Source: a virus. Taken from it: a DNA stretch of 55,495 nucleotides. A program made the position numbers and the translations under genes. Shown here piece after piece: positions 3,107 to 47,174 of this stretch. Location of the stretch: IMG/VR virus record IMGVR_UViG_3300021474_000001, positions 1 through 55,495 of that record; one strand, written 5' to 3'. Below the pieces are notes generated by a model, which worked only from the letters and a program-made list of their open reading frames with translations, was not told the DNA's origin and ran no database searches. The number at the start of each line of letters is the position of its first letter. Positions within the stretch are counted from its first letter, which is position 1.

Positions 3107-3372
3107 AGTTTCGCCTCTGCCCACAGCCATTCGAGTTCTTTCAAAGACTGATAATGAGGTTCGATGCCGTCCCTGACCAACTTCTCGCGAACGGCTTGCT
3201 CTACGTACTTGAGGTCATCGCCAGCGGTTCTGAACCCTTCGGGATACCGTGACGCTGGGCATTTCTCGCAAAAGCCGTCGCAGCAACGGGACGCTTCGGG
3301 GTCGCGAGAATGCCATGCGAGCGAGATAATCGCGCAAGCAATCTCCATCGCTTTGAGCCTGTTGCGGATCAT
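3103..3372 (-). CDS. Unknown Cys-containing protein, 89 aa
   Basis: It lies between recT and the exonuclease gene with ATGA overlaps on both sides. The middle has CCDGFCEKCPAS (four Cys in about 9 residues), which could bind a metal or form a small redox centre; the C-terminal half is helical and ends LEWLWAEAKL. No family recognised. Its position inside the recombination pair suggests an accessory role. Confidence 0.65.
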   Translation of the reverse strand: MIRNRLKAMEIACAIISLAWHSRDPEASRCCDGFCEKCPASRYPEGFRTAGDDLKYVEQAVREKLVRDGIEPHYQSLKELEWLWAEAKL

Positions 3373-4322
3373 CCCGCCAACTCCGACTGCATCGCGCTGG
3401 TCAGCGGCTCGATCTGACTGAGCCTCAACTTGACCAAATCGTCAACGCTGAAATTCTTTTCGAGGAAGGGAGCGAGAGCGCTGCGCTTGCCGCCGAGACT
3501 GATCCATTGGTCGAAGAGGTCGTCAACCTCGCCCGTCGAGAGCGGACGATCTTCTTTGGGTGGTATCTCGGGCTGGACGCGGCGGGGCGTAGGGGCCTTG
3601 GTCCCGTCCGATGCGTCGGGGATTTCGGGCTGTACCTCAACTTCGCCGGCATCTCGCGCGGTTGTGGCGAACGTCAGGTCGAGGCGAGCCGCCTCATCGT
3701 CTTTCATCAAGCCGCGACGGTCGCCCTGCAGGCGCTTGGCATGCCGCCGGATGACGGATTTGCGGATCATCTCGCCCTCGAAGTACTGCCACGCGGGGGA
3801 GGGCTTGTTGCCAGAGATTCGGAGCGCGGCTTTCTTGATGGCGTCGATGTCGTCGAGGTCCATAATCTCGAAATCTTTGTAGCCCCCAGGCATCACGGCG
3901 ACTGAGTAGACGTGCGTGATCTTGCCTCGCTTCTCTTTCGCGGGGTAGTGGGTGATCTTCGGGTCGGTGCCGAGTTCGGCCTCGAAGCGATCGTCTTCGC
4001 GGACGAGATTGGCAGTCATCTGAACGACGCAACCAGCTTGGACGAGCCGGAATACCATCCCTCGCCAGCCGATCTGCAACTGCGCTTCGTTCTTGTAGGG
4101 GATGATGTAGCAGTGCTGATCGACGGTGCCGAGTTCGAGACCGCACTGTGCGGCTTTGAGCACGCAGTCGAAAAGGGATTGTGGCGTGCAGGAGCGGAGT
4201 TGAGGGTTGCGCTCGACTTCGCGAGCGAGAATGAAGAATCGCTCGGGCGTGAGGTACTTGGGGAGCAGGGCGCGGATTTCGTCGGCGCGCGTGTCGATTA
4301 GGGTCAGGAATGTGTCAGCCAT
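3369..4322 (-). CDS. recT: RecT-family single-strand annealing protein, 317 aa
   Basis: Start is the ATG at 4322 (protein begins MADTFLTLIDTRADEIRALL); an in-frame extension to 4490 exists but is the displaced frame of the duplicated upstream gene. The hallmark RecT block follows: a helix, LTPERF, then CTPQSLFDCVLKAAQCGLEL, then GTVDQHCYIIPY and LQIGWRGMV, all near the family's usual positions. The C-terminal third is acidic and Pro-rich and probably binds partners. RecT anneals complementary single strands; with the exonuclease next door it forms a recombination or replication-restart system. It overlaps the gene above by 8 nt. Confidence 0.92.
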   Translation of the reverse strand: MADTFLTLIDTRADEIRALLPKYLTPERFFILAREVERNPQLRSCTPQSLFDCVLKAAQCGLELGTVDQHCYIIPYKNEAQLQIGWRGMVFRLVQAGCVVQMTANLVREDDRFEAELGTDPKITHYPAKEKRGKITHVYSVAVMPGGYKDFEIMDLDDIDAIKKAALRISGNKPSPAWQYFEGEMIRKSVIRRHAKRLQGDRRGLMKDDEAARLDLTFATTARDAGEVEVQPEIPDASDGTKAPTPRRVQPEIPPKEDRPLSTGEVDDLFDQWISLGGKRSALAPFLEKNFSVDDLVKLRLSQIEPLTSAMQSELAG

Positions 4323-4611
4323 TGGCAAACTCCTTATCCATCGTGAAGCGAACGCAGTAAGCGATCTGGCCTTCGAGGGTGCGAAACTGATCATCGGCCT
4401 GCGACTTCGCCCATTTCGCGACTTCGCCCATTTCGCGACTTCGCCACTCAGGGTGACAGATACGGTGACGGAGCGGCCGCGGCGCTTCACGCCGGTCTTG
4501 CGCTCGCGCTTCTGCTTCGCCGGTCTTGCGCTCGCGCTTCTGCTTCGCCGGTTTCTGCAACCCGTCGTCGTTCTGCCTCTGCGCCGTGTTCTCTGAGGGT
4601 AGCTGACTCAT
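4315..4611 (-). CDS. Ribbon-helix-helix-like protein altered by two tandem duplications, 98 aa
   Basis: The open frame contains two tandem duplications, 28 bp (4493-4548) and 17 bp (4401-4434 plus a partial third copy). Each alone would shift the frame; together they add 45 bp and restore it. Removing one copy of each predicts an 83-aa protein whose centre reads RSVTVSVTLSGEVAKW, a beta strand then helix as in ribbon-helix-helix repressors. In the present frame that centre is replaced by an unrelated Arg-rich segment, so the DNA-binding strand is probably lost. N- and C-terminal parts stay in the original frame. Function before the change: probable DNA binding; now uncertain. An assembly artefact cannot be excluded. 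Confidence 0.6.
   Translation of the reverse strand: MSQLPSENTAQRQNDDGLQKPAKQKRERKTGEAEARAQDRREAPRPLRHRICHPEWRSREMGEVAKWAKSQADDQFRTLEGQIAYCVRFTMDKEFANG
4401..4446. repeat. 17-bp tandem duplication (2.7 copies)
   Basis: The unit gcgacttcgcccatttc occurs at 4401-4417 and 4418-4434, with a 12-bp partial copy at 4435-4446. It lies in the coding sequence of the 98-aa leftward gene and is not a multiple of three, so it shifts the frame by two. Confidence 0.9.
4493..4548. repeat. 28-bp tandem duplication (2 copies)
   Basis: Two identical 28-bp units, 4493-4520 and 4521-4548, each starting cggtcttgcgctcgcg. They lie in the same gene as the 17-bp repeat. 28 is not a multiple of three; the shift is compensated by the 17-bp repeat downstream in the gene. 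Confidence 0.92.
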
Positions 4612-4787
4612 CGTTTCTCCTTGCCGTTGGTTAGCGAGCGCAGATTGGATGCGAGGCCGCGATCCTTGAGCAGCGCCGACGCCACGAGCACGCTTGCGGT
4701 GACGTTGCGCCGGATCGCTTCCATGCGGATCGCCTGAATCCAGTCACGCTCAAGATAGACTGTAAATCGAACCGTTGATTTCGCCAT
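4608..4787 (-). CDS. Ribbon-helix-helix DNA-binding protein, 59 aa, first gene of leftward operon
   Basis: ATG at 4787 gives MAKSTVRFTVYLERDWIQAI, a typical ribbon-helix-helix (Arc/MetJ/CopG) layout: a strand with alternating residues (TVRFTVYL), helix A (about 14-26), then helix B (NVTASVLVASALL). The basic C-terminus ends NGKEKR. As first gene after the leftward promoter it could autoregulate through the palindrome at 4793-4802. No Shine-Dalgarno is seen and the predicted transcript starts at the ATG, so translation may be leaderless. Overlaps the next gene by ATGA. Confidence 0.75.
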   Translation of the reverse strand: MAKSTVRFTVYLERDWIQAIRMEAIRRNVTASVLVASALLKDRGLASNLRSLTNGKEKR

Positions 4788-11635: not shown

Positions 11636-11803
11636 ATGAAAATAAAACTGCCCGCCAAGGAAACCGCCACGCGCATCGTCTCGGTTCGCTTCACTCCTGC
11701 CGAGTATCAAGTGATCCTCGCCAAGGCGCACGGCGTCAAACCCGCGACTCTCATCCGCGCCGTCGTTATCCAAGTGCTCAAGGCCGGAATCGAAGTCAAC
11801 TGA
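11636..11803 (+). CDS. Ribbon-helix-helix (CopG/Arc-like) repressor candidate, 55 aa
   Basis: ATG 11636 opens a 55-codon frame: MKIKLPAKETATRIVSVRF, a strand with alternating residues, then helix A (TPAEYQVILAKAHG) and helix B (KPATLIRAVVIQVLKAG). This is the ribbon-helix-helix order. It faces the leftward accessory operon across a 140-bp control region and has an inverted repeat at its 5' end, the usual layout of an autoregulated switch protein. No Shine-Dalgarno is seen. Confidence 0.7.
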   Translation: MKIKLPAKETATRIVSVRFTPAEYQVILAKAHGVKPATLIRAVVIQVLKAGIEVN

Positions 11804-23041: not shown

Positions 23042-24052
23042 ATGGGCGGGTTTGTCGGGTCGGGACTTTACCAACCGCCGGTCGTGGCTCAAGCGACCAT
23101 GGACAGCATCACGCAGCGATGGTTGCAGCCCGTTATCGGCGACGCCATCTTCATTCCATCGACCGCGCTTGGCGAAATGACGAGTATCGGCCGGCGGGTG
23201 GATGCGGCCGATCTGCCGTTCGCGGTAGCGGCGCGCACCATTCCCGGCGGCGGCGCTTTTTGGGGCACGCAGCCCATCTCGCTCGAAGTCCCCGATCCGG
23301 TTCAGCCGGCGGTGCAGAGTTGGAAGTACTACCGCCAGCCCCTCGCCGTGTCGCTGACCGACCTCTGGACCAACCAGGCGTCGAGTCCGACCGGAGTCCT
23401 CAACCTCATCCGCGCATACATGATCATGCTGTCGGGAACCTTCCTGACGATTCTGAGTAACGCGCTGTGGGGCGATACGACGCAGCCCTCCGGCCTCGCT
23501 ATCGACGACATCAATGCGTGGTTGAACAACACGACGAATACGATCGCTGGCATCAACCGCACCACGTCATCGAATGCGTTCTGGAAGCCGAACGCAGCGA
23601 TCGCAATGCCCGGCGGCGGAATGACGATGGCTGCGATGGTATCGGCGTACTGGTCGTATGCCGGAAACCTCGGCTTCGACTATCCGCAGGTGATGTTCAT
23701 GTCGCCGACCGGCTACGCGAACTTCATGAATCTGTTCGTGCAGCAAATCCGGTATCTGAACGAATTCCCCGACGACGACATGGTGCAGAGCACGTTCAAA
23801 CAGGGCGTGCGGTTCTTCACCACGAAGGTCGTTCCCGACCCGTACCTCGCGGCGGAGCAGGCGCAGACGGCGTTCATTATCAACTACAAGTATATCTATC
23901 CGGTGTTCTTCAGCAGGGTCTATTTTAGGTTTACGCCTTGGGTCCAGCCTAGCAATCAGTTATTGCTCTCTACGTTCCTTTTATTGGGCTGGAATGTTCA
24001 ATGCGTCTCTCCTTCCAAAGCGGGTCAAGTATTGACTGGTACGGGGCTTTAA
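23042..24052 (+). CDS. Major capsid protein, 336 aa
   Basis: ATG 23042 has AAGGAG with good spacing. The sequence fits the HK97-fold coat of podovirus-like phages: N-arm helix with PVVAQATMDSITQRWLQPVI, a beta-rich E-loop region (FAVAARTIPGGGAFWGTQPI), a long spine helix around NLIRAYMIMLSGTFLTILSN, and a P-domain ending in WVQPSNQLLLSTFLLLGWNV. Length and position after scaffold agree. It forms the icosahedral shell. Homing endonuclease genes flank it on both sides. Confidence 0.85.
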   Translation: MGGFVGSGLYQPPVVAQATMDSITQRWLQPVIGDAIFIPSTALGEMTSIGRRVDAADLPFAVAARTIPGGGAFWGTQPISLEVPDPVQPAVQSWKYYRQPLAVSLTDLWTNQASSPTGVLNLIRAYMIMLSGTFLTILSNALWGDTTQPSGLAIDDINAWLNNTTNTIAGINRTTSSNAFWKPNAAIAMPGGGMTMAAMVSAYWSYAGNLGFDYPQVMFMSPTGYANFMNLFVQQIRYLNEFPDDDMVQSTFKQGVRFFTTKVVPDPYLAAEQAQTAFIINYKYIYPVFFSRVYFRFTPWVQPSNQLLLSTFLLLGWNVQCVSPSKAGQVLTGTGL

Positions 24053-37121: not shown

Positions 37122-40100
37122 TGAAACGAGTCGCGGCGATAGCATTGCTCCTGCTGTTCGTGGTGGTGAGCTACGTCGTCACCATCCAGAATCCAGTGAA
37201 CGGGCCTCGATCAGCTTTTGCCGTGACTCCAACTCCTACAGCCCAAGTAACGTCGTCGCCTACAGCTTTGATTGGTGGCTCGAATCGCATGGGGTTCAAC
37301 CTTGGTGGCGATGACTATCAAGGCTGCTGCGGCGGCAACTACATGCAGAACATGTTTCAGAATCCCGGCCTCGAACCGTCAACGGACGGGCATCTGATCG
37401 ACGTGGGTCCGGGGGCAACCGGTAGTTCATTTACTGATACGACTGACAACGGTGCTGCGACAAACTACTGGGTGGGCGCGATAGCGTCGGTCAGAAGTGG
37501 CGCGGCGGCGGGCGACCAATTTACCATTACCGGCTACACGGCGGGCGGTTCCTATACCTTCGGCAGTTGTGAGAATGCTACGGGCGCCCCGATCAGTTGC
37601 CCCACCTTGGCAACCGGCGTGGCCGTGGGCGAAGTGCTCACCTCAGTCGATGTCGCGGGCAACATGGATACCAACGTCATCGGTGGCTGGGGCGGTGTTC
37701 ATGACGGACACTGCGTACTCTCCATCGCGGATAAGTACGAGGGCCAAGGTTCCATTGCTTGCAATGTCGCTGATGGTTCCGCCCACACCTTCAACTACGG
37801 GTGGGATTTGTCCACGACTACCGGCGGCGTGTGCTCGAATGACAGCGTAACTCCCTGTACCGTGGCGAATCAGACAGCGGATTGTGGAGGAGGGAATACC
37901 TGTCTTACGGCTCCGCAGGCTGGCCCGTGGCATCCCGTCGTCGGGGCGTTCGAGACTTCGTTTTGGGCCAAGGGTGCGAATACATCCACCGGCACGCCTC
38001 AAGTGTCGTTTCAACTCTACCGCACCGCTGGCGGTGGTGTGAACGTCAGTCACACATGGACGCTGACCAACGATGGCGCTTGGCATCAGTACACTTATTC
38101 CTTTACCGGCACGGATGTTGGCCCAAATCAAAATTCCTTGCTTTATCAATTTTCCACGACCAACAACTCGGCAGAGACTAGTGCGACCATCTACATCGAC
38201 GACGCCTATCTCGGCAAAGCAGCATCCTCAGCGACCGGTTTCCGCAACGAGATGCTAACTACCGTCAATGCGCTGAATCCCGGCTCGATGCGGTACGCGG
38301 CCTATGCGCAGTTGGGGACGAATGATCGGGGCTACGAGGGCGCGCAAGGCTGTAATCCGACACCTTCGTCGCCAACTACGACCGGCACTTGCGATATGTT
38401 GCACGGGGCTGCCTTTGATACCTACGGCGGCGCTCCGAATGGCAGCTGGACGTTCGCGGGGTCGGATGTCTACGCATTGGCGAATCAGACCAACTCGGTG
38501 CCATTTATGACGCTCGGAAACGTGATGAGCGACGCTGACCTCAAGAGCTTCATCGACAATCTGTGTACGGCAGTAAACACCTACAGCTTCCCATCAGCGT
38601 GGGTCGAAGGCGGCAACGAGAACTGGAATAACGGCGCGGGGCGTATCTCATTTGGCAACAATCCGGGTGCTTTGGGCTACGGCGGCACTTGGGGCCGCAA
38701 CTTCTCGGTTATGAACGCCGAAGCTACTGCCCACTGCGGCAGCGCGGTCGCGGCCAAGGTTCACTACATAATGAACAACCAAGCCTGCAACGGCGGCGTC
38801 ATCCAAACCGAGATAGCTGGCGCTGCCACGGCGGGTTTCGCCATTCCCAATACCAGTCAGTACGGAGGCGACGACGCGCCCTACTATCCGAACACGACCG
38901 CCATGCCGTTTGCGACGGGCAGCCTCGCGGCACAGGCGGCAACCTTCGCGGCCGATTTCTTCGGGTACATTCCTCAGTACGTCAATAACGGGAATGGTTG
39001 CACGGGTGGCGCGTCTAATGGCGACTACAGCTACGTTCAATCGAACAACGTGATCCCGTTCTACGAGGAAGGGCCGAACGCCTATTCGTCCAGTGGCGGC
39101 AGCACGACCGAACAGGGCTATCTCGCGCAAGCGGGCTACCCGAGCGCGGCGTGGATGGCGCAAAGCTGGCTATGGGGTCAGCAGCAAGGGCGAACGCCGC
39201 TGCAGAATGAGTATCAGCTCGCGCAGCCGGAGTTCGGCGGGTCAATCAGTGTGCCCATTTGGGGTTTCACGCACGACATGGATGCGGACTTCGGGCCGAC
39301 ATTCCCGCATCTGAGGTCCATCGGCATCGGTATGGAAATCGTCAACGGGGCGATCCAAGCCAACTATTATCCGATCACAGGGCTGCCGAGCGGTGTCGTA
39401 GGGAACGCCTATGGATCGAACGGGCTGGGCACGGGCAACATGAGCGCTGTGCTGGTCAACGGCAATGGCACTGCGCAATCCTTCGCGGTGGTGTTTCCGG
39501 CTGGCAGCACAGTTCCGCAGAGCTGTGTCGCATCCGTCTATACCAACGGTCTCGCCGACAACAATGAAAACTCCGACGATGTAACGGCGGGTGCTTGCAC
39601 CGGTGTCACGACTGTTGGACAGGCGGTCGGCATCACGTTGCGACCCTACCAAGTGGCGGCGATGGACGCCGGCACGCCAGGACCGACAGCAACAGCGACG
39701 GCGACCGCGACAAGCACAGCCACCGCAACGGCCACCGCTACTGCCACTGGAGGTGCGACGGCCACCGCAACTGCAACTGCGACCTCAACGGCCACAGCGA
39801 CAGCCACGAGCACGGCGACGGCCACTGCTACGACAAGCCCAACGCCAACTGCAGCTCCCACCGCAACTGCTTGCGCCGGCCTTCCTCCAACCACCGTCAC
39901 GATCACCGGCAACCTCTACGACAACTACGGAAATCCTTCGGTCGGTACGACGGTCGCGGTGACGCCGCTTAATCCGACCGCGCAGGGCTGTAGTCTGATC
40001 ATGGCGAATCCCGTGCCGACCAGCACGGACAAGTTCGGCCATTTCATCCTGAATGCAGTCGGCGGCATCTATTCCGCGGTGTCGTTTGCGGGCGGCGTCG

Positions 40101-40843
40101 ATCTACCGACGACGCTGATTCTGACGACGCTGCCGCAAACCGGCGTGGTGACGCTCTCTCAGCTTCTCGCCCAGCAATCGAATATCGTGACGAGTTTTCC
40201 GCCGAACGGAAATCTCAACATGAACGGATTTACGTTTCTGAACCTGGCAGGCGCGACCATCGCGGGGAATCCGGTGGTCGAGGGCTTGGGGTTGAGTGGC
40301 GGCGCCGTGTTCACGTCGAGTGGCACATTCACGGTCCCGCTGAACTCGACCTATATCGTCGCGACGCTCTTCGCTGGCGGGGGCGGTGGTGGTGGTGGAC
40401 ACGCAGGAACAAACGGTGGAGGCGGCGGAGGAGGTGGACAAATCCTACAATGCCTGATGCTTCCGGTGAACGGGACCATCACCGTGACGATTGGTGCGGG
40501 CGGCACCGCGGGTACGGCATCACCGAGCGCGGGCGGCAATGCGGCCGACACGACCGCGAGCCAGTCCTCATCCACGACGATCTGCGATGCTGGCGGCGGC
40601 TCAGGTGGCGCGGCGGGCTCGGGCGGTAGTCCTGGTGCGGGCGGTGCGGGCGGTGCTGCGAGTACGACGATTACCGGCGCCGCGATTCAGATGTTCGTGA
40701 CGACCGGCACCGCAGGCGCCAATGGCACGAGCAGCGCTGGTGGCACTGGCGCGGGGCTCGGGCTGTTCGGTGGCACGGGCGGAGCGCCGGCGGGCGCGGG
40801 CGTGGCGGGCGCGAAGGGAGTGGCATTGCTCAGGGCGTTCTAG
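37118..40843 (+). CDS. Exported fibre-like protein: glycoside-hydrolase-like domain, Ala-Thr linker, Gly-rich tail, 1241 aa
   Basis: ATG overlaps the glycosyltransferase stop. Residues 1-35 are a Sec signal peptide (KRVAAIALLLLFVVVSYVVT), then a Thr/Pro spacer. Residues about 65-380 are beta-rich (carbohydrate-binding type). About 380-850 resemble a clan-A glycoside hydrolase barrel: WVEGGNENWN (acid/base Glu near 500) and VIPFYEEGPNAYS (nucleophile Glu near 648). A (Ala-Thr)n linker (about 855-917) follows. The last about 320 residues include a Gly-rich tip (GGGGGGGGHAGTNGGGG) shared with the next gene. It should degrade or bind a host surface glycan. A signal peptide is unusual for a tail fibre. 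Confidence 0.75.
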   Translation: MMKRVAAIALLLLFVVVSYVVTIQNPVNGPRSAFAVTPTPTAQVTSSPTALIGGSNRMGFNLGGDDYQGCCGGNYMQNMFQNPGLEPSTDGHLIDVGPGATGSSFTDTTDNGAATNYWVGAIASVRSGAAAGDQFTITGYTAGGSYTFGSCENATGAPISCPTLATGVAVGEVLTSVDVAGNMDTNVIGGWGGVHDGHCVLSIADKYEGQGSIACNVADGSAHTFNYGWDLSTTTGGVCSNDSVTPCTVANQTADCGGGNTCLTAPQAGPWHPVVGAFETSFWAKGANTSTGTPQVSFQLYRTAGGGVNVSHTWTLTNDGAWHQYTYSFTGTDVGPNQNSLLYQFSTTNNSAETSATIYIDDAYLGKAASSATGFRNEMLTTVNALNPGSMRYAAYAQLGTNDRGYEGAQGCNPTPSSPTTTGTCDMLHGAAFDTYGGAPNGSWTFAGSDVYALANQTNSVPFMTLGNVMSDADLKSFIDNLCTAVNTYSFPSAWVEGGNENWNNGAGRISFGNNPGALGYGGTWGRNFSVMNAEATAHCGSAVAAKVHYIMNNQACNGGVIQTEIAGAATAGFAIPNTSQYGGDDAPYYPNTTAMPFATGSLAAQAATFAADFFGYIPQYVNNGNGCTGGASNGDYSYVQSNNVIPFYEEGPNAYSSSGGSTTEQGYLAQAGYPSAAWMAQSWLWGQQQGRTPLQNEYQLAQPEFGGSISVPIWGFTHDMDADFGPTFPHLRSIGIGMEIVNGAIQANYYPITGLPSGVVGNAYGSNGLGTGNMSAVLVNGNGTAQSFAVVFPAGSTVPQSCVASVYTNGLADNNENSDDVTAGACTGVTTVGQAVGITLRPYQVAAMDAGTPGPTATATATATSTATATATATATGGATATATATATSTATATATSTATATATTSPTPTAAPTATACAGLPPTTVTITGNLYDNYGNPSVGTTVAVTPLNPTAQGCSLIMANPVPTSTDKFGHFILNAVGGIYSAVSFAGGVDLPTTLILTTLPQTGVVTLSQLLAQQSNIVTSFPPNGNLNMNGFTFLNLAGATIAGNPVVEGLGLSGGAVFTSSGTFTVPLNSTYIVATLFAGGGGGGGGHAGTNGGGGGGGGQILQCLMLPVNGTITVTIGAGGTAGTASPSAGGNAADTTASQSSSTTICDAGGGSGGAAGSGGSPGAGGAGGAASTTITGAAIQMFVTTGTAGANGTSSAGGTGAGLGLFGGTGGAPAGAGVAGAKGVALLRAF
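39684..39868 (+). repeat. (Ala-Thr)n linker coding repeat 1
   Basis: About 30 Ala-Thr dipeptides with a few Ser, Gly and Pro. Synonymous codons vary freely (GCA ACG GCG ACC GCG ACA ...), so the repeat is kept at protein level rather than by slippage of one DNA unit. Confidence 0.85.
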
Positions 40844-42780
40844 TGGGGAAGTCTTTCTCATGGACGGTCCTATTCCTGCTCGTAGCGACCACGGCGAGCG
40901 CGGGGATCGGCCTCGTGGGTAGTCCGCCGACTCCGCAGGTCACGACGAGTTGTTCATCGGGAACGATGGTATTTCCTTCAGTCAACGTGACGGCGGGCGA
41001 TGCTCTCGTCATTCAGTGGATCGGAACTTCGAGCGGCACAAATCCGCAGAACGCGACGAGCATGACCGACAATAACGGTCAGACTGATGGGACTGGCGCG
41101 AGCTGGATTCAACTCAACCAGACTCAAGTGACAAGCCCAGGACGGCAGACGGGGCACTGGTGGGCACCGAACCACAATTCGGGACCGACAATCGTGACGG
41201 TGCATTTCTCAGGCGGAAGCGCAGGAACGTGCGGCGGCATCGCGTACCTTGAAGAATGGTCGGGAATCAAGCGGACTGGGAATCCCGAGTTTCAGCCCAC
41301 GAATAGCGGGACGGGTACGTCGGTGACGGCAGGCACGGCGACGTGGAGCGCGGGCGATCTTTTACTCTCCGCGGGCGGACAGGTGGACACGGCCGCGGCG
41401 ATAGCGGGTGGGCCGACTAACTCGTTCACCGAATTTATGGACCCGACGAATCCGGCTGATACGGTGCCGATGGCGGCGTATCGTATCTTCGCGGCGGGCG
41501 GGACGCTCGGAACGACGTGGACGACGACGAACTCGGCGGCGTGGCAGGCGAGTCTAATCGGAATGCTTGCGGCCCCAGCGACAGCAACTCCTACCGCCAC
41601 AGCCACCGCGACGGCAACTGCGACCGCTACCGCCTCGGCCACAATCACGGCTACTCCAACCGCGACGGCGACGGCGACCGCAACGGCGACGGCCACCGCT
41701 ACTGCCACGAATGTTGCTACGGCGACTGCGACGCTCACGGCGACGGCTACGGCGACCATCAGCGCTACTCCGACAATCTCCGCGACCCCAACGGCGACGG
41801 CCACCGCAACGGCTACTCCTGTCGGAATTCCCACCGTTACGGTCACGGGCTGCGTGTACGACTTCTTCGCCAACCCAGTCGTCGGCACTGTCGTCGGCAT
41901 TTTCCCGCTCAAAGCAACGCCGGAGAACGGAAACGCCGTCGTCGCGAATCCGGTAGCGACCAACACGAATCTGCAGGGCTGCTTCTCGCTTCAGGTGGTC
42001 GGCGGGATCTACGACGCCTTCTACGTTCAGGGCAGCACGACGATGCCGATGGCGCTGCTCAAGGCGACACTGCCGCTGTCGGGGACGATCTCGTTCTCAA
42101 GCCTGCTTCCGCCGTCGAGCTCGGTCACGGCTTCTTTCCCGCCTGCTGGGAATCTTAGCTTGGCGGGGTTCACCTTCACGGGAGTCGGGTCTGCGTCGAT
42201 TGCGGGACAGATGGTGGTCGAGGGCGCAGGGTTGGACGGCGGGCAAATCTTCATCGTGAACGGCGTCTATACGCCACCGATGAATGCAACGTGGGTAGTG
42301 GCGACGTTGCTCGGAGGTGGAGGCGGCGGCGGCGGCGGAGCTACAGGTTCTACGCATGGCGGAGGCGGAGGGGGCGCGGGTGATTTGCTCCAATGTCTCA
42401 TGCTACCTTCTGACGGGACCGTAAGTGTCACGGTGGGCGCAGGAGGCAGCGGTGGTGCGGCGACAGTCAGCGGATCAGCGGGGACCGATTCGACGGTCAG
42501 TCAGCAGGGCGCGACGACGATTTGCGATGCGGGAGCGGGTAGTGGTGGGACTGGAGGGTCTGGCGGTGGAAACGGCACGGGTGGCGCAGGTGGCGGGGGA
42601 ACCATAACTGGCGTGGCGATGCAGATGTTCAACACGGCGGGAGCAAACGGTGCGAATGGCACGGGGGCGCTCGGCGGGGCGGGTGGAGGGATTGGATATT
42701 TCGGCGGGACGGGCGGCGCGCCGAATGGGCAGTCGGGCGTTGCGGGAAGGAGCGGGATTGTCCTCATGAGGTCGTTCTGA
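40843..42780 (+). CDS. Exported fibre-like paralogue: beta-sandwich, Ala-Thr linker, Gly-rich tail, 645 aa
   Basis: GTG 40843 overlaps the previous TAG. Signal peptide (SWTVLFLLVATTASA), then a beta-sandwich (about 30-240; ALVIQWIGTSSGTNP, GTATWSAGDLLLSAGG), an (Ala-Thr)n linker (about 245-325) and a C-terminal module of about 320 residues that is clearly homologous to that of the previous gene (VTVTGCVYDFFANPVVGTVV, LQCLMLPSDGTVSVTVGAGG). The Gly-rich tip resembles receptor-binding tips of T-even-type adhesins. The pair share a tail but carry different heads, as in receptor or enzyme diversification. Confidence 0.7.
   Translation: MGKSFSWTVLFLLVATTASAGIGLVGSPPTPQVTTSCSSGTMVFPSVNVTAGDALVIQWIGTSSGTNPQNATSMTDNNGQTDGTGASWIQLNQTQVTSPGRQTGHWWAPNHNSGPTIVTVHFSGGSAGTCGGIAYLEEWSGIKRTGNPEFQPTNSGTGTSVTAGTATWSAGDLLLSAGGQVDTAAAIAGGPTNSFTEFMDPTNPADTVPMAAYRIFAAGGTLGTTWTTTNSAAWQASLIGMLAAPATATPTATATATATATATASATITATPTATATATATATATATATNVATATATLTATATATISATPTISATPTATATATATPVGIPTVTVTGCVYDFFANPVVGTVVGIFPLKATPENGNAVVANPVATNTNLQGCFSLQVVGGIYDAFYVQGSTTMPMALLKATLPLSGTISFSSLLPPSSSVTASFPPAGNLSLAGFTFTGVGSASIAGQMVVEGAGLDGGQIFIVNGVYTPPMNATWVVATLLGGGGGGGGGATGSTHGGGGGGAGDLLQCLMLPSDGTVSVTVGAGGSGGAATVSGSAGTDSTVSQQGATTICDAGAGSGGTGGSGGGNGTGGAGGGGTITGVAMQMFNTAGANGANGTGALGGAGGGIGYFGGTGGAPNGQSGVAGRSGIVLMRSF
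41578..41819 (+). repeat. (Ala-Thr)n linker coding repeat 2
   Basis: About 80 residues dominated by Ala-Thr with scattered Pro, Ser, Ile and Asn; codon choice varies between units. Longest linker of the cassette together with that at 46870. Confidence 0.85.
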
Positions 42781-43163
42781 TGAGACCCGCTATAGCCGAC
42801 CGCAATATGGCATCACTCATATCGCTCATAACCATTCTGCTGACCGTGGAAGTTCTCGCTTATCGGAAAGTTTACTTGGACGCTTACGACCTCAAGATGC
42901 AACCCATTTATTTAGAGCAGGGTCGGACGCCGCTAAACTATTATGCTTGGCAGGACGAGGACCATCGTTACGTCATCTCGGTATTACAGAACGGCGGAAC
43001 GCTAACCTTCGAGAACGTCACGGGCGGGCTTCCGCCTTTCAAGACAGCAATCGTCGGGTCGATAACCGGCGTGGGGACAATTCGCGTGCCAGCACCACAG
43101 CAGGACCAAGATATGTACGTTGATTCGACGGGGACAGCGGAGGTGCAGGTGCAAGCGCGATGA
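42780..43163 (+). CDS. Membrane-anchored small protein, 127 aa
   Basis: ATG overlaps the fibre stop by 1 nt. One N-terminal hydrophobic segment (MASLISLITILLTVEVLAYR), then a soluble domain with NYYAWQDEDHRYVISVLQNG and a beta-rich C-terminus. It may be an anchor or chaperone for the adjacent exported proteins. No family recognised. Confidence 0.6.
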   Translation: MRPAIADRNMASLISLITILLTVEVLAYRKVYLDAYDLKMQPIYLEQGRTPLNYYAWQDEDHRYVISVLQNGGTLTFENVTGGLPPFKTAIVGSITGVGTIRVPAPQQDQDMYVDSTGTAEVQVQAR

Positions 43164-45259
43164 GACGACTACTGCCATTTCTGGTTCTGTTCTCACTACC
43201 GTGGAGCACTGTGGTATGGGCGCAGGTACTCTGTCCCCTATGCGATTGCTCCTTCGATGCGATCTCCGGTTCTACTACTGCCTCGACCGGCGGTAATCTC
43301 AATACGAGCATCGCGATTGCGGACCCAGGTGTTCACGTCGGGGATTCGGTGCTGTGCCTGGTCGGCTACGACTCGTACCTGCACGGAATTAATGCGATCG
43401 ATAATACATGGACGAATCTCGGGAATCTCCAACTGCCTGATGGCTCAGGCGAATCGTTGCTCTTGCAGAACTACCCCGGATCGTACCCGACCGCCAGTTT
43501 TCAAAACCTGAGCACTCTGATTGCCGAGAACTGGTCCGCTATCTGCGTCGCGAGTTCGTATCGCGCGTCTCTCGATGGCCTTGTGACGAGTCTGGCGAAT
43601 GCCGCCTCGACCACCGCCACGGCTCCCAAAGTCGTGATAGACCAGACCCTCACGTCCCTGTTCAACTTCTGCTCCACGCCGGGAACGATCACATTCTCGT
43701 CGCCTACTCTCGGATCGCTGGTCACGCAGCAGCACGCTTTCGGGCCGAGTGTGGCTGTAGCCAATAGCCGCGATGCGATTGTCTCTCCTACGTCCGCGAA
43801 CCAGATCACGCTCAGCACTTCGGCGGTGTCGGGCTGCATATCGGCGGCGTTCAAGTGCGGCCCGAATCCGACCGCGACTGCGACCGCCACAGCTACACCA
43901 ACGGCGACGGCTACGGGCGCGACTGCTACCGCCACTGCGACCGCTACACCAACGGCCACCGCATCACCCACCGGCTCGATCACGAATATCGTGGTGATCG
44001 AGAAAGAGAATCGCAGCTACGATAATTATTTCGGGACGTTCCCGTGTTCGGGCGGACCTTGCGGAGTCTCGACGGCGACCCTGAGTACGGGGGCCACCTA
44101 CGCGCTGACACGCGGAATGGATACGACCTCGACGGACTTCGACCACGACTACATTCCATTCATCACCGACATCGACGGCGGCTTGATGGACGGTTTCGAT
44201 AAGGCTCCGTGGTGTACCTCGACCAGCACGCCGCCCTATGGGTGCCTGATCCAGCAGGTGCAGGCGGACATCCCGAACTACTGGACGCTGGCGACGAATT
44301 ACGCGCTCGGCGACAATATGTTCCCGGACATCATCGGTCCCAGCCAGCCGAATCACTTGGCCATGCTGTTCGCGAGTTCATTCTTTGACATCAGCAATAC
44401 GTGGAACAACGGCACGACACAGAGCTGGGGCTGCGATGCGCCGCTGAAAGCTAGCGACTGCACGGCGGCGAACGTGCCAGGGCCGCAATGCACTGGCGCG
44501 GGAACCTGCCCGACTTGTACGGCGACTACTTCCGCTTACGTTCAACTTCTAGGGCAGACACCGAATACGAAGTACCCATGCTTCACGCAGACTTCGCTTA
44601 TGGACGAGGCGGCAACCGCCAGCGTCAGTTTCAAATGGTACGGTGATATAACCTTCGGCGACACCGGCTACTACTGGACCGCGCCGGATGAGCTGATCCG
44701 CTTCACCAACGGGACCGCGAATTGGACGAGTCACGTCGTGGCATCGACCCAATTCACCACCGATGCCGACGCAGGCACGTTGCCTCAGATCGCGTGGGTC
44801 ACGCCGGACCTCGCGCACAGTGAGCATCCGCTGGAAGGTATTTGCACCGGCGAGAACTGGACGATGAATCTGCTCAATCATCTGTTCGCAGGGCCGCAGG
44901 GAGCGCATACCGCCGTGTTCATCGTGTGGGATGAGAGCGGCGGTCTCTACGATCATGTGAATCCGCCAGTCATTCAGAGTGTCGGCGCGAATCGACTGTC
45001 GGCTGGTCCGCGCGTGCCGGTGCTGGTCGTCTCGCCTTATGCCCGCGCGACTGGTGGCGTTGCTGCGAACGTAATCCATACGCAGGTGCTATTCTCTTCG
45101 ATTGTGAGGCAGATCGAAAACCAATTCGGACTGCCGCGACTCGGCGGGCACGACTCGACCGTGAACGACATGAGCAGTTTTCTCAACCTGAACCAGACGC
45201 CGATAACGTGGACGCCGCTGGTTCAGAGAACAGGTGGATCGTGCGTTACATCGCCGTAG
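43160..45259 (+). CDS. Exported phosphoesterase (phospholipase C type) with Ala-Thr linker, 699 aa
   Basis: ATGA-coupled. Signal peptide (RRLLPFLVLFSLPWSTVVWA), N-terminal beta domain with several Cys, (Ala-Thr)n linker (about 236-271), then a phosphoesterase-family domain: IVVIEKENRSYDNYFGTF (about 275), DIDGGLMDGFDKAPWC, MFPDIIGPSQPNHLAMLFAS and VFIVWDESGGLYDHVNPP (about 587). These match bacterial non-specific phospholipases C and acid phosphatases, where the early Glu-Asn and later Asp/His bind metal and substrate. It should hydrolyse phospholipid or phosphate esters outside the cytoplasm. Very uncommon in a phage structural region. Confidence 0.85.
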   Translation: MRRLLPFLVLFSLPWSTVVWAQVLCPLCDCSFDAISGSTTASTGGNLNTSIAIADPGVHVGDSVLCLVGYDSYLHGINAIDNTWTNLGNLQLPDGSGESLLLQNYPGSYPTASFQNLSTLIAENWSAICVASSYRASLDGLVTSLANAASTTATAPKVVIDQTLTSLFNFCSTPGTITFSSPTLGSLVTQQHAFGPSVAVANSRDAIVSPTSANQITLSTSAVSGCISAAFKCGPNPTATATATATPTATATGATATATATATPTATASPTGSITNIVVIEKENRSYDNYFGTFPCSGGPCGVSTATLSTGATYALTRGMDTTSTDFDHDYIPFITDIDGGLMDGFDKAPWCTSTSTPPYGCLIQQVQADIPNYWTLATNYALGDNMFPDIIGPSQPNHLAMLFASSFFDISNTWNNGTTQSWGCDAPLKASDCTAANVPGPQCTGAGTCPTCTATTSAYVQLLGQTPNTKYPCFTQTSLMDEAATASVSFKWYGDITFGDTGYYWTAPDELIRFTNGTANWTSHVVASTQFTTDADAGTLPQIAWVTPDLAHSEHPLEGICTGENWTMNLLNHLFAGPQGAHTAVFIVWDESGGLYDHVNPPVIQSVGANRLSAGPRVPVLVVSPYARATGGVAANVIHTQVLFSSIVRQIENQFGLPRLGGHDSTVNDMSSFLNLNQTPITWTPLVQRTGGSCVTSP
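43868..43974 (+). repeat. (Ala-Thr)n linker coding repeat 3
   Basis: About 35 residues, Ala-Thr with Pro and Gly, between the N-terminal domain and the phosphoesterase domain of the exported enzyme. Confidence 0.85.
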
Positions 45260-45516
45260 TACTCATTCTGGCCGGATGCAACCCGTATCGCGGGAACCCT
45301 GACGGCATCTCGCAGGAGTCGGTCTGGCAGGCGCGGCAGGCGATCTGCGATGCGGCGCGGACTGGACGCCAGCTCGACCCAGACGCGGCGATGGGGATGG
45401 CGATTTTCGATTACGAGAACGGAGAGTGGGACGACGATGACTGCGTGATCCGTCCGAAGGCAGGGCAGATAGGCAAGCTGCTGGACTTGGGTTCAGCGAG
45501 GCCGGATTGGTCGTGA
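45241..45516 (+). CDS. Lipoprotein, 91 aa
   Basis: GTG 45241 gives VRYIAVVLILAGCNPYRG, a signal peptide with lipobox LAGC, so the mature protein is lipid-anchored at Cys 13. The rest is charged, with CVIRPKAGQIGKLLDL. It overlaps the phosphoesterase end by 19 nt in another frame. Role unknown; it may act in lysis or exclusion. Confidence 0.65.
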   Translation: MRYIAVVLILAGCNPYRGNPDGISQESVWQARQAICDAARTGRQLDPDAAMGMAIFDYENGEWDDDDCVIRPKAGQIGKLLDLGSARPDWS

Positions 45517-47174
45517 GACGAATAGCACTCATCGCCGTGTTGCTCGCGTTTCTCTTACCGACGAAGGGATGGGCGCAGAGCGCCGTCGATTCGACTAGCA
45601 TCGTTCAGCATAAATCCTGCCCCAACCTGACGCCGAGCGGGTCTGTGGCGACGTGCGCGTTTACGAGTGCCCCGGCAGTCGGCAACCTCATCATCGCCAT
45701 CGGAGCCACGGCGGGCACGACGATCACACAGACCTTCACGAGCAACAACGGCACCTGCACCTCGCGAGAGTTACAGACCGGCCAGAACTCAGGACAGCAA
45801 ATCTCGGAATGTACGGTCACCGCGAACGTGGCTACGACCATCACGGATACCCTCTCGTCGCTCAACGGCTTGACCGCCATCGAAATCATGGAAGTCCACG
45901 ACACGGGCGGCGTCGTTTCTTTCGACGTGGCGGGCGGCGTGAAGAACGGATCGGCGTCGGCGAACGTATCGAGCGGCGCGACGGGAGCGACTAACAACGT
46001 GGTGGACTTCTGCGTGGCAGCGCTCAGCTTCGCCAGCACGATTGGCAAGACGCCCACGGCGGGTCCGGGGCTGCTCGCGGCGGCTGTGCCGAGTGCGTGG
46101 AACGTGATCGACAACAACACGACCGCAGGGCCGGGAATGCTGACTGCGAGCACCGTGACGAGCGCATCGGCGTTAGCAGTAGCCTCAGCGTGGTCGTGGA
46201 GTGGCGCTACTTCAACCACAGGCGGCACGGTCTGCTACAAGGGGCAGGTGCAGCCGACGATTGCGCCAGCGGGGACGCCGACGACAACTGTGTACACGGC
46301 CGTTTCCTCTTCCGCGATTACTCTCGCTAGCAGTTCGGCGTCCGCGTGTAATCGGGTTCAGTTATGCGACAGTACTGGCCTATTAAGCTCGCCCTCATGT
46401 ACGTGCACTGGGGGAACCTGTACGCGAGTGCTTGGACCGACAACATGGAACACCATTCAGAGCAAGGCTGTGTTTTTCTGTAATGGTTGCACGGGTAGCT
46501 TATCCTGTTCTTTTGGAGTCACCGCCAATGGGGTTGCGGCAGTTGACGCTTTTACCGGATCGTCGTGCGCGACAGATTGTTCAGGCGCGGGCGATCAGAC
46601 AGGAAGCAGTGCGACCTCAACCTCAAATAGTTTGACGAGTTGCAATCAAGGCGATGCGCTCTTGTACGACGCTTGTAATAACGGCGGGGGGGCTTATTCA
46701 AATTCTACTCCGTTGGCCAGTACAGCGTCGCTCAATACCACTGCTACTCCCGCCAGTCTTCTCGCCTACTACTTCGACACCGCCCCCTCGACCAACACCA
46801 GCCCCGCGCAGAGTCGCACACAGGGCAACGTCGCATGGGTATCCGGTGCGGTAGGGCTGGGACCGGCGTCAGCGGCGACTGCGACGGCAACGGCGACTGC
46901 GACCGCCACGGCAACAGCAACTGCTACAGCGACAGCTACGGCCACCGCAACGGCGACAGCTACGGCCACTGCTACCGCGACCGCTACAGCCACAGCAACG
47001 GCTACCGCAACAGTGACAGCCACGCCCACGCCGATCGCTACTCCGACGGCGACGGCTACGGCTACGGGCGGTGCCACTAACCCAACGCCCATTCCGCAAT
47101 CTCTCGGACAACCCGGCTTCGGCCCATCACGACCATTAGGCTCTCGACCTGAAGGATTTGGAGGAGTTCTATGA
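45513..47174 (+). CDS. Exported protein with two beta domains and the longest Ala-Thr linker, 553 aa
   Basis: GTG 45513 overlaps the lipoprotein stop (GTGA). Signal peptide (IALIAVLLAFLLPTKGWAQS), then a beta-sandwich (about 20-250) and a Cys-rich beta domain (about 250-400; CDSTGLLSSPSCTCTGGTC). A pure Ala-Thr run (about 452-517) precedes a Pro/Gly/Ser-rich end. The C-terminus lacks the Gly-rich tip of the fibres. Surface-exposed and probably O-glycosylated; activity unknown. It overlaps the next gene by 4 nt. Confidence 0.65.
   Translation: MRRIALIAVLLAFLLPTKGWAQSAVDSTSIVQHKSCPNLTPSGSVATCAFTSAPAVGNLIIAIGATAGTTITQTFTSNNGTCTSRELQTGQNSGQQISECTVTANVATTITDTLSSLNGLTAIEIMEVHDTGGVVSFDVAGGVKNGSASANVSSGATGATNNVVDFCVAALSFASTIGKTPTAGPGLLAAAVPSAWNVIDNNTTAGPGMLTASTVTSASALAVASAWSWSGATSTTGGTVCYKGQVQPTIAPAGTPTTTVYTAVSSSAITLASSSASACNRVQLCDSTGLLSSPSCTCTGGTCTRVLGPTTWNTIQSKAVFFCNGCTGSLSCSFGVTANGVAAVDAFTGSSCATDCSGAGDQTGSSATSTSNSLTSCNQGDALLYDACNNGGGAYSNSTPLASTASLNTTATPASLLAYYFDTAPSTNTSPAQSRTQGNVAWVSGAVGLGPASAATATATATATATATATATATATATATATATATATATATATATATATVTATPTPIATPTATATATGGATNPTPIPQSLGQPGFGPSRPLGSRPEGFGGVL
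46868..47063 (+). repeat. (Ala-Thr)n linker coding repeat 4
   Basis: About 65 residues, almost uninterrupted Ala-Thr, ending in Pro/Ile/Gly variants. Codons vary (GCA, GCG, GCC, GCT; ACA, ACG, ACC, ACT), so protein-level repetition is conserved. Confidence 0.85.

Follow-up and report, generated by a model that had tools for sequence, protein, structure and literature searches.

The DNA analysed, referred to here as the window, is a linear virus record of the IMG/VR kind with a length of 55,495 bases. The genes considered lie on its minus strand. The gene recT (3369–4322) encodes a RecT-family single-strand annealing protein of 317 aa (PF03837, E = 2.9e-32; phrog_148, E = 2.6e-47). It is preceded by the gene under study, labelled rhhX (4315–4611), which is a 98-aa ORF as sequenced, and by a small gene (4608–4787) for a 59-aa Arc/CopG ribbon-helix-helix (RHH)-like protein (phrog_2639, Arc-like repressor, E = 0.0016), the RHH profile score of which was equalled by one of 150 shuffles. 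Directly upstream of this operon, a consensus scan located a promoter-like site in which the hexamers TTGACA and AATATT are separated by 17 nt and TG precedes the latter (4823–4795, minus strand); this is a consensus match only, one site being found where 0.5 were expected.

The genes are tightly packed. The start of rhhX overlaps the stop of the upstream gene (ATGA), and its 3' end shares 8 nt with recT and contains the Shine–Dalgarno-like AAGGAG of recT (4330–4335, minus strand). The same motif is found ahead of the rhhX start at 4617–4622. Because of these overlaps and motifs, rhhX is probably a real gene; together with the promoter-like site they indicate that it is probably translated as a member of the operon. 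Another small RHH-like ORF, resembling NikA, is present at 11636–11803 (Pfam E = 0.0009, below the cut-off).

Exact tandem repeats were scanned for throughout the window using periods of 8–79. Two arrays, both located in rhhX, were the sole exact tandem repeats with a period of 10–79 in the 55,495 bp, and both were also detected by TRF. The 17-bp duplication (4401–4445) spans 45 bp and comprises 2.65 copies with 28 matching positions and an 11-bp end repeat, GCGACTTCGCC. The 28-bp duplication (4490–4552) spans 63 bp and comprises 2.25 copies with 35 matching positions and a 7-bp end repeat, CGCCGGT. Neither array contains a mismatch, and chance is excluded as the source of the two repeats. An earlier note on this DNA had described 28-bp and 17-bp tandem duplications in one gene that add 45 bp in total; both are exact and the sum is correct. 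Its range of 4401–4548 starts at the right position but ends 4 bp short, the 28-bp array reaching 4552. Several long low-complexity tandem arrays with periods of 6–66 bp (GCGACN/ACGGCN type) occur elsewhere, in large late ORFs at 39684–47067, and would encode Thr/Ala-rich repeats.

The reading frames were followed with one unit of either or both arrays removed. Removal of one unit of each gave an ORF of 83 aa with unchanged start and stop. When the 28-bp duplication was kept alone the product stopped at 67 aa, and when the 17-bp duplication was kept alone the frame remained open from the ATG through recT, giving a 404-aa fusion. Each duplication by itself therefore breaks the frame, by truncation or by fusion to RecT, and the two together restore it, as the earlier note had proposed. 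Its figure of about 30 out-of-frame residues in the middle was also accurate: in the present protein exactly 30 residues (32–61), EAEARAQDRREAPRPLRHRICHPEWRSREM, replace 15 residues (32–46), VKRRGRSVTVSVTLS, of the one-copy version, and residues 1–31 and the last 37 residues are common to both proteins. The unique stretch between the arrays (4446–4489, minus strand, 44 nt) is now out of the one-copy frame. Its codon usage favours the one-copy frame weakly (log-probability per codon of -4.06 versus -4.28; 14 codons), which is the expected direction.

Removal of one copy of each unit had also been predicted to yield an intact RHH-like protein. The intact ORF was obtained, and its RHH nature is plausible but weakly indicated. 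No Pfam match was found for the full 83-aa one-copy protein, nor for the present 98-aa protein even at E = 10. A trimmed one-copy core, picked after the full-length Pfam search had come up empty, gave RHH_5 as its only hit, with E = 0.17 and a score of 12.1 bits, where the cut-off is 26. With a self-made RHH profile, the score of the one-copy protein was reached by 11 of 150 shuffles and is not significant. A PDB sequence search with the one-copy protein returned nothing. The order of elements in the one-copy core is plausibly strand-helix-helix. The single-sequence AlphaFold2 model of the 98-aa protein (mean pLDDT 66.6) contained a single long C-terminal helix and lacked a strand; this fold test is non-discriminating, because the RHH-like upstream protein was likewise predicted as one helix. 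If the RHH reading is true, the altered middle would remove the DNA-contacting strand and keep both helices, and loss of DNA binding would be predicted.

Both duplicated units are bounded by short direct repeats, of 11 and 7 bp. Microhomology of at least 11 bp for a 17-bp unit was found at none of 54,906 random sites in the window, and microhomology of at least 7 bp for a 28-bp unit at two of 10,000. Since direct repeats of these lengths at the duplication ends are rare at random sites, slipped-strand mispairing is the indicated origin, and the end microhomologies fit replication slippage better than contig ends left uncollapsed. Among the frame-shifting direct-repeat pairs of the one-copy window with spacings of 8–60, the strongest is the 11-bp pair spaced 17 bp apart, which marks this site as a natural slippage hotspot. 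DNA hairpins as slippage triggers were without clear support (z = -1.87 for the 17-bp array and +1.28 for the 28-bp array), the 11-bp repeat pattern occurred at chance level in other phages, and Rfam gave no match.

Other phage DNA totalling 503 kb, a set that includes near-identical prophages, contained seven loci with exact tandem duplications of period at least 15. The period was a multiple of 3 in six of them, the exception being a 23-bp array in the locus L091. This rarity makes two duplications so near each other unlikely as independent accidents; the estimate suggests a chance of about 0.4% for a second long tandem duplication within 150 bp. Compensation of one by the other explains the pairing, and a shared local artefact would explain it as well. 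In L091 (2640–2770) about four 23-bp units form an imperfect array in a long ORF; these may be replication iterons located in a replication gene.

Relatives of rhhX were sought in viral contigs, genome contigs, phage records and plasmids. None was found, and hence none with single copies of the units, which the earlier note had suggested looking for. Scans with RecT alone and with the neighbouring exonuclease-like genes likewise found none. A RecT alignment gave 80 loci, none with a credible relative of rhhX; a short match in L077 resembles chance and was rejected. A helicase scan led to the distant loci L002 and L003, and a TerL scan led to the related phages L004 and L006–L008. These related phages have only the structural module in common with the window, and the early region that contains rhhX had no match in L004 or L006–L008, some of which are fragments. 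As no relative was found, we infer the single-copy ancestor from the repeats alone; with no single-copy relative in the collections searched, we likewise infer the ancestral state, the timing, any selection and the switched-off allele that the earlier note had put forward. A 336-aa protein (23042–24052, probable capsid protein) is 82–90% identical in related phages (L100, L098 and L101), in which TerL is 56–59% and the portal protein 63–67% identical, an unusually uneven conservation. In the portal gene of a close relative (L004, 2884–4591) two overlapping matches in different frames were obtained, possibly owing to a frameshift or a sequencing error near 3194.

Taken together, rhhX probably bears a 'frameshift scar' left by two slippage duplications, the second of which restored the frame. 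Two separate replication-slippage events would each have doubled a segment bounded by short direct repeats, the 11-bp repeats 17 bp apart in one case and the 7-bp repeats 28 bp apart in the other. The first event would have broken the frame. The second would have restored it, within the same short gene and with the two arrays 44 bp apart; either array may have been the first to form. The outcome would be 30 out-of-frame residues where 15 stood. If the protein was RHH-like, the 15 lost residues would have held the DNA-contacting β-strand, and both predicted helices would have been retained in the 37-residue C-terminal part. The present protein has most likely lost RHH-type DNA binding, and its translation would still terminate at the start of recT.

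Selection for continued translation into recT may have favoured the second event, and the case for it is moderate at best. Two random non-triplet insertions have a sum divisible by 3 in half of cases, and 53% of simulated restored ORFs contained no stop; frame restoration alone is therefore weak evidence of selection. The earlier note had attributed retention of the C-terminal end to the overlap with recT. The 8-nt overlap accounts for the conserved DNA but leaves the restored frame unexplained, since the ribosome-binding site of recT would persist in any frame. For the same reason, namely that recT has its own ribosome-binding site, an intact frame in rhhX is not obviously needed for recT. 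These figures and this site also suit neutral decay, in which rhhX would be dispensable, both duplications passengers and the frame restored by luck; that no relative was found is likewise what is seen for many dispensable phage genes. However, rhhX has no other visible disabling change, and each of the two long duplications, which lie close together, is rare in itself; we consider neutral decay improbable.

An artefact of assembly or library preparation is somewhat less improbable, though still unlikely. Contig ends or a bridging read might have been joined with their overlaps uncollapsed, or a PCR slippage product might have entered the consensus. The contig belongs to the IMG/VR type of virus record, both duplications lie inside 152 bp with nothing similar elsewhere in the window, and the stretch between the arrays might represent one short read or a small contig. 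Uncollapsed overlaps, however, would not be expected to leave 11- and 7-bp microhomologies at the ends, and these repeats are much shorter than the usual assembly words, which far exceed 7 or 11 bp. The ORF is moreover still open with its start and stop kept. PCR slippage is compatible with the microhomology but would be needed twice and would have to dominate the consensus.

The two arrays might instead act as a contingency switch, in which repeat copy number toggles between separate DNA-binding, truncated and scrambled proteins and an in-frame RecT fusion. The 17-bp site has the strongest frame-shifting repeat pair, with two copies of the 17-bp unit and one of the 28-bp unit the frame has no stop between the ATG and the end of RecT (404 aa), and tandem duplications of this type are known to revert (review PMC13207564). 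Only a single state was seen, however, with two copies per array where contingency loci usually have many, and the open fusion frame may be due to chance in GC-rich DNA; such a switch appears very improbable. We would give still less credence to the more specific proposal that, through slippage at the 17-bp site, the phage alternates between making RecT and a DNA-binding protein separately and making the two as an in-frame fusion, with the 28-bp duplication resetting the frame.

If real, the frameshift scar in rhhX would be a clear natural phage example of two long slippage duplications, one the wound and the other the repair. It also illustrates that annotation can mask a broken domain, the ORF seeming intact with its middle out of frame. 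Its broader importance is modest unless population reads reveal switching.

The closest parallel is provided by the frameshift scars of M. tuberculosis, in which paired indels break and then restore the frame (74 in 48 genes; Gupta and Alland 2021, PMC8339072). There, as in rhhX, each of two indels is frame-breaking and the two jointly restore the frame, usually close together within one gene. The M. tuberculosis indels are mostly less than 10 nt apart and were identified in the sequencing reads of thousands of isolates (PMC8339072), whereas rhhX has two long tandem duplications seen in one contig. In fission yeast ssp1, according to the account in PMC13207564 of Dan et al. (2021), microhomology-mediated short tandem duplications break genes and can revert. 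As described there, these duplications resemble those in rhhX in being short, in being bounded by short direct repeats and in breaking the coding frame; the difference is that the first duplication in rhhX would be compensated by a second, whereas the ssp1 duplications can revert. The likeness to phage Arc/CopG RHH regulators lies in the plausible strand-helix-helix order of the one-copy core (RHH_5, E = 0.17) and in the RHH-like gene directly upstream; unlike such regulators, rhhX has an RHH_5 match below the cut-off and the present allele would lack the strand. The present case represents a known type of mutation rather than a new system, and it unites a frameshift scar and microhomology-bounded duplication in a phage.
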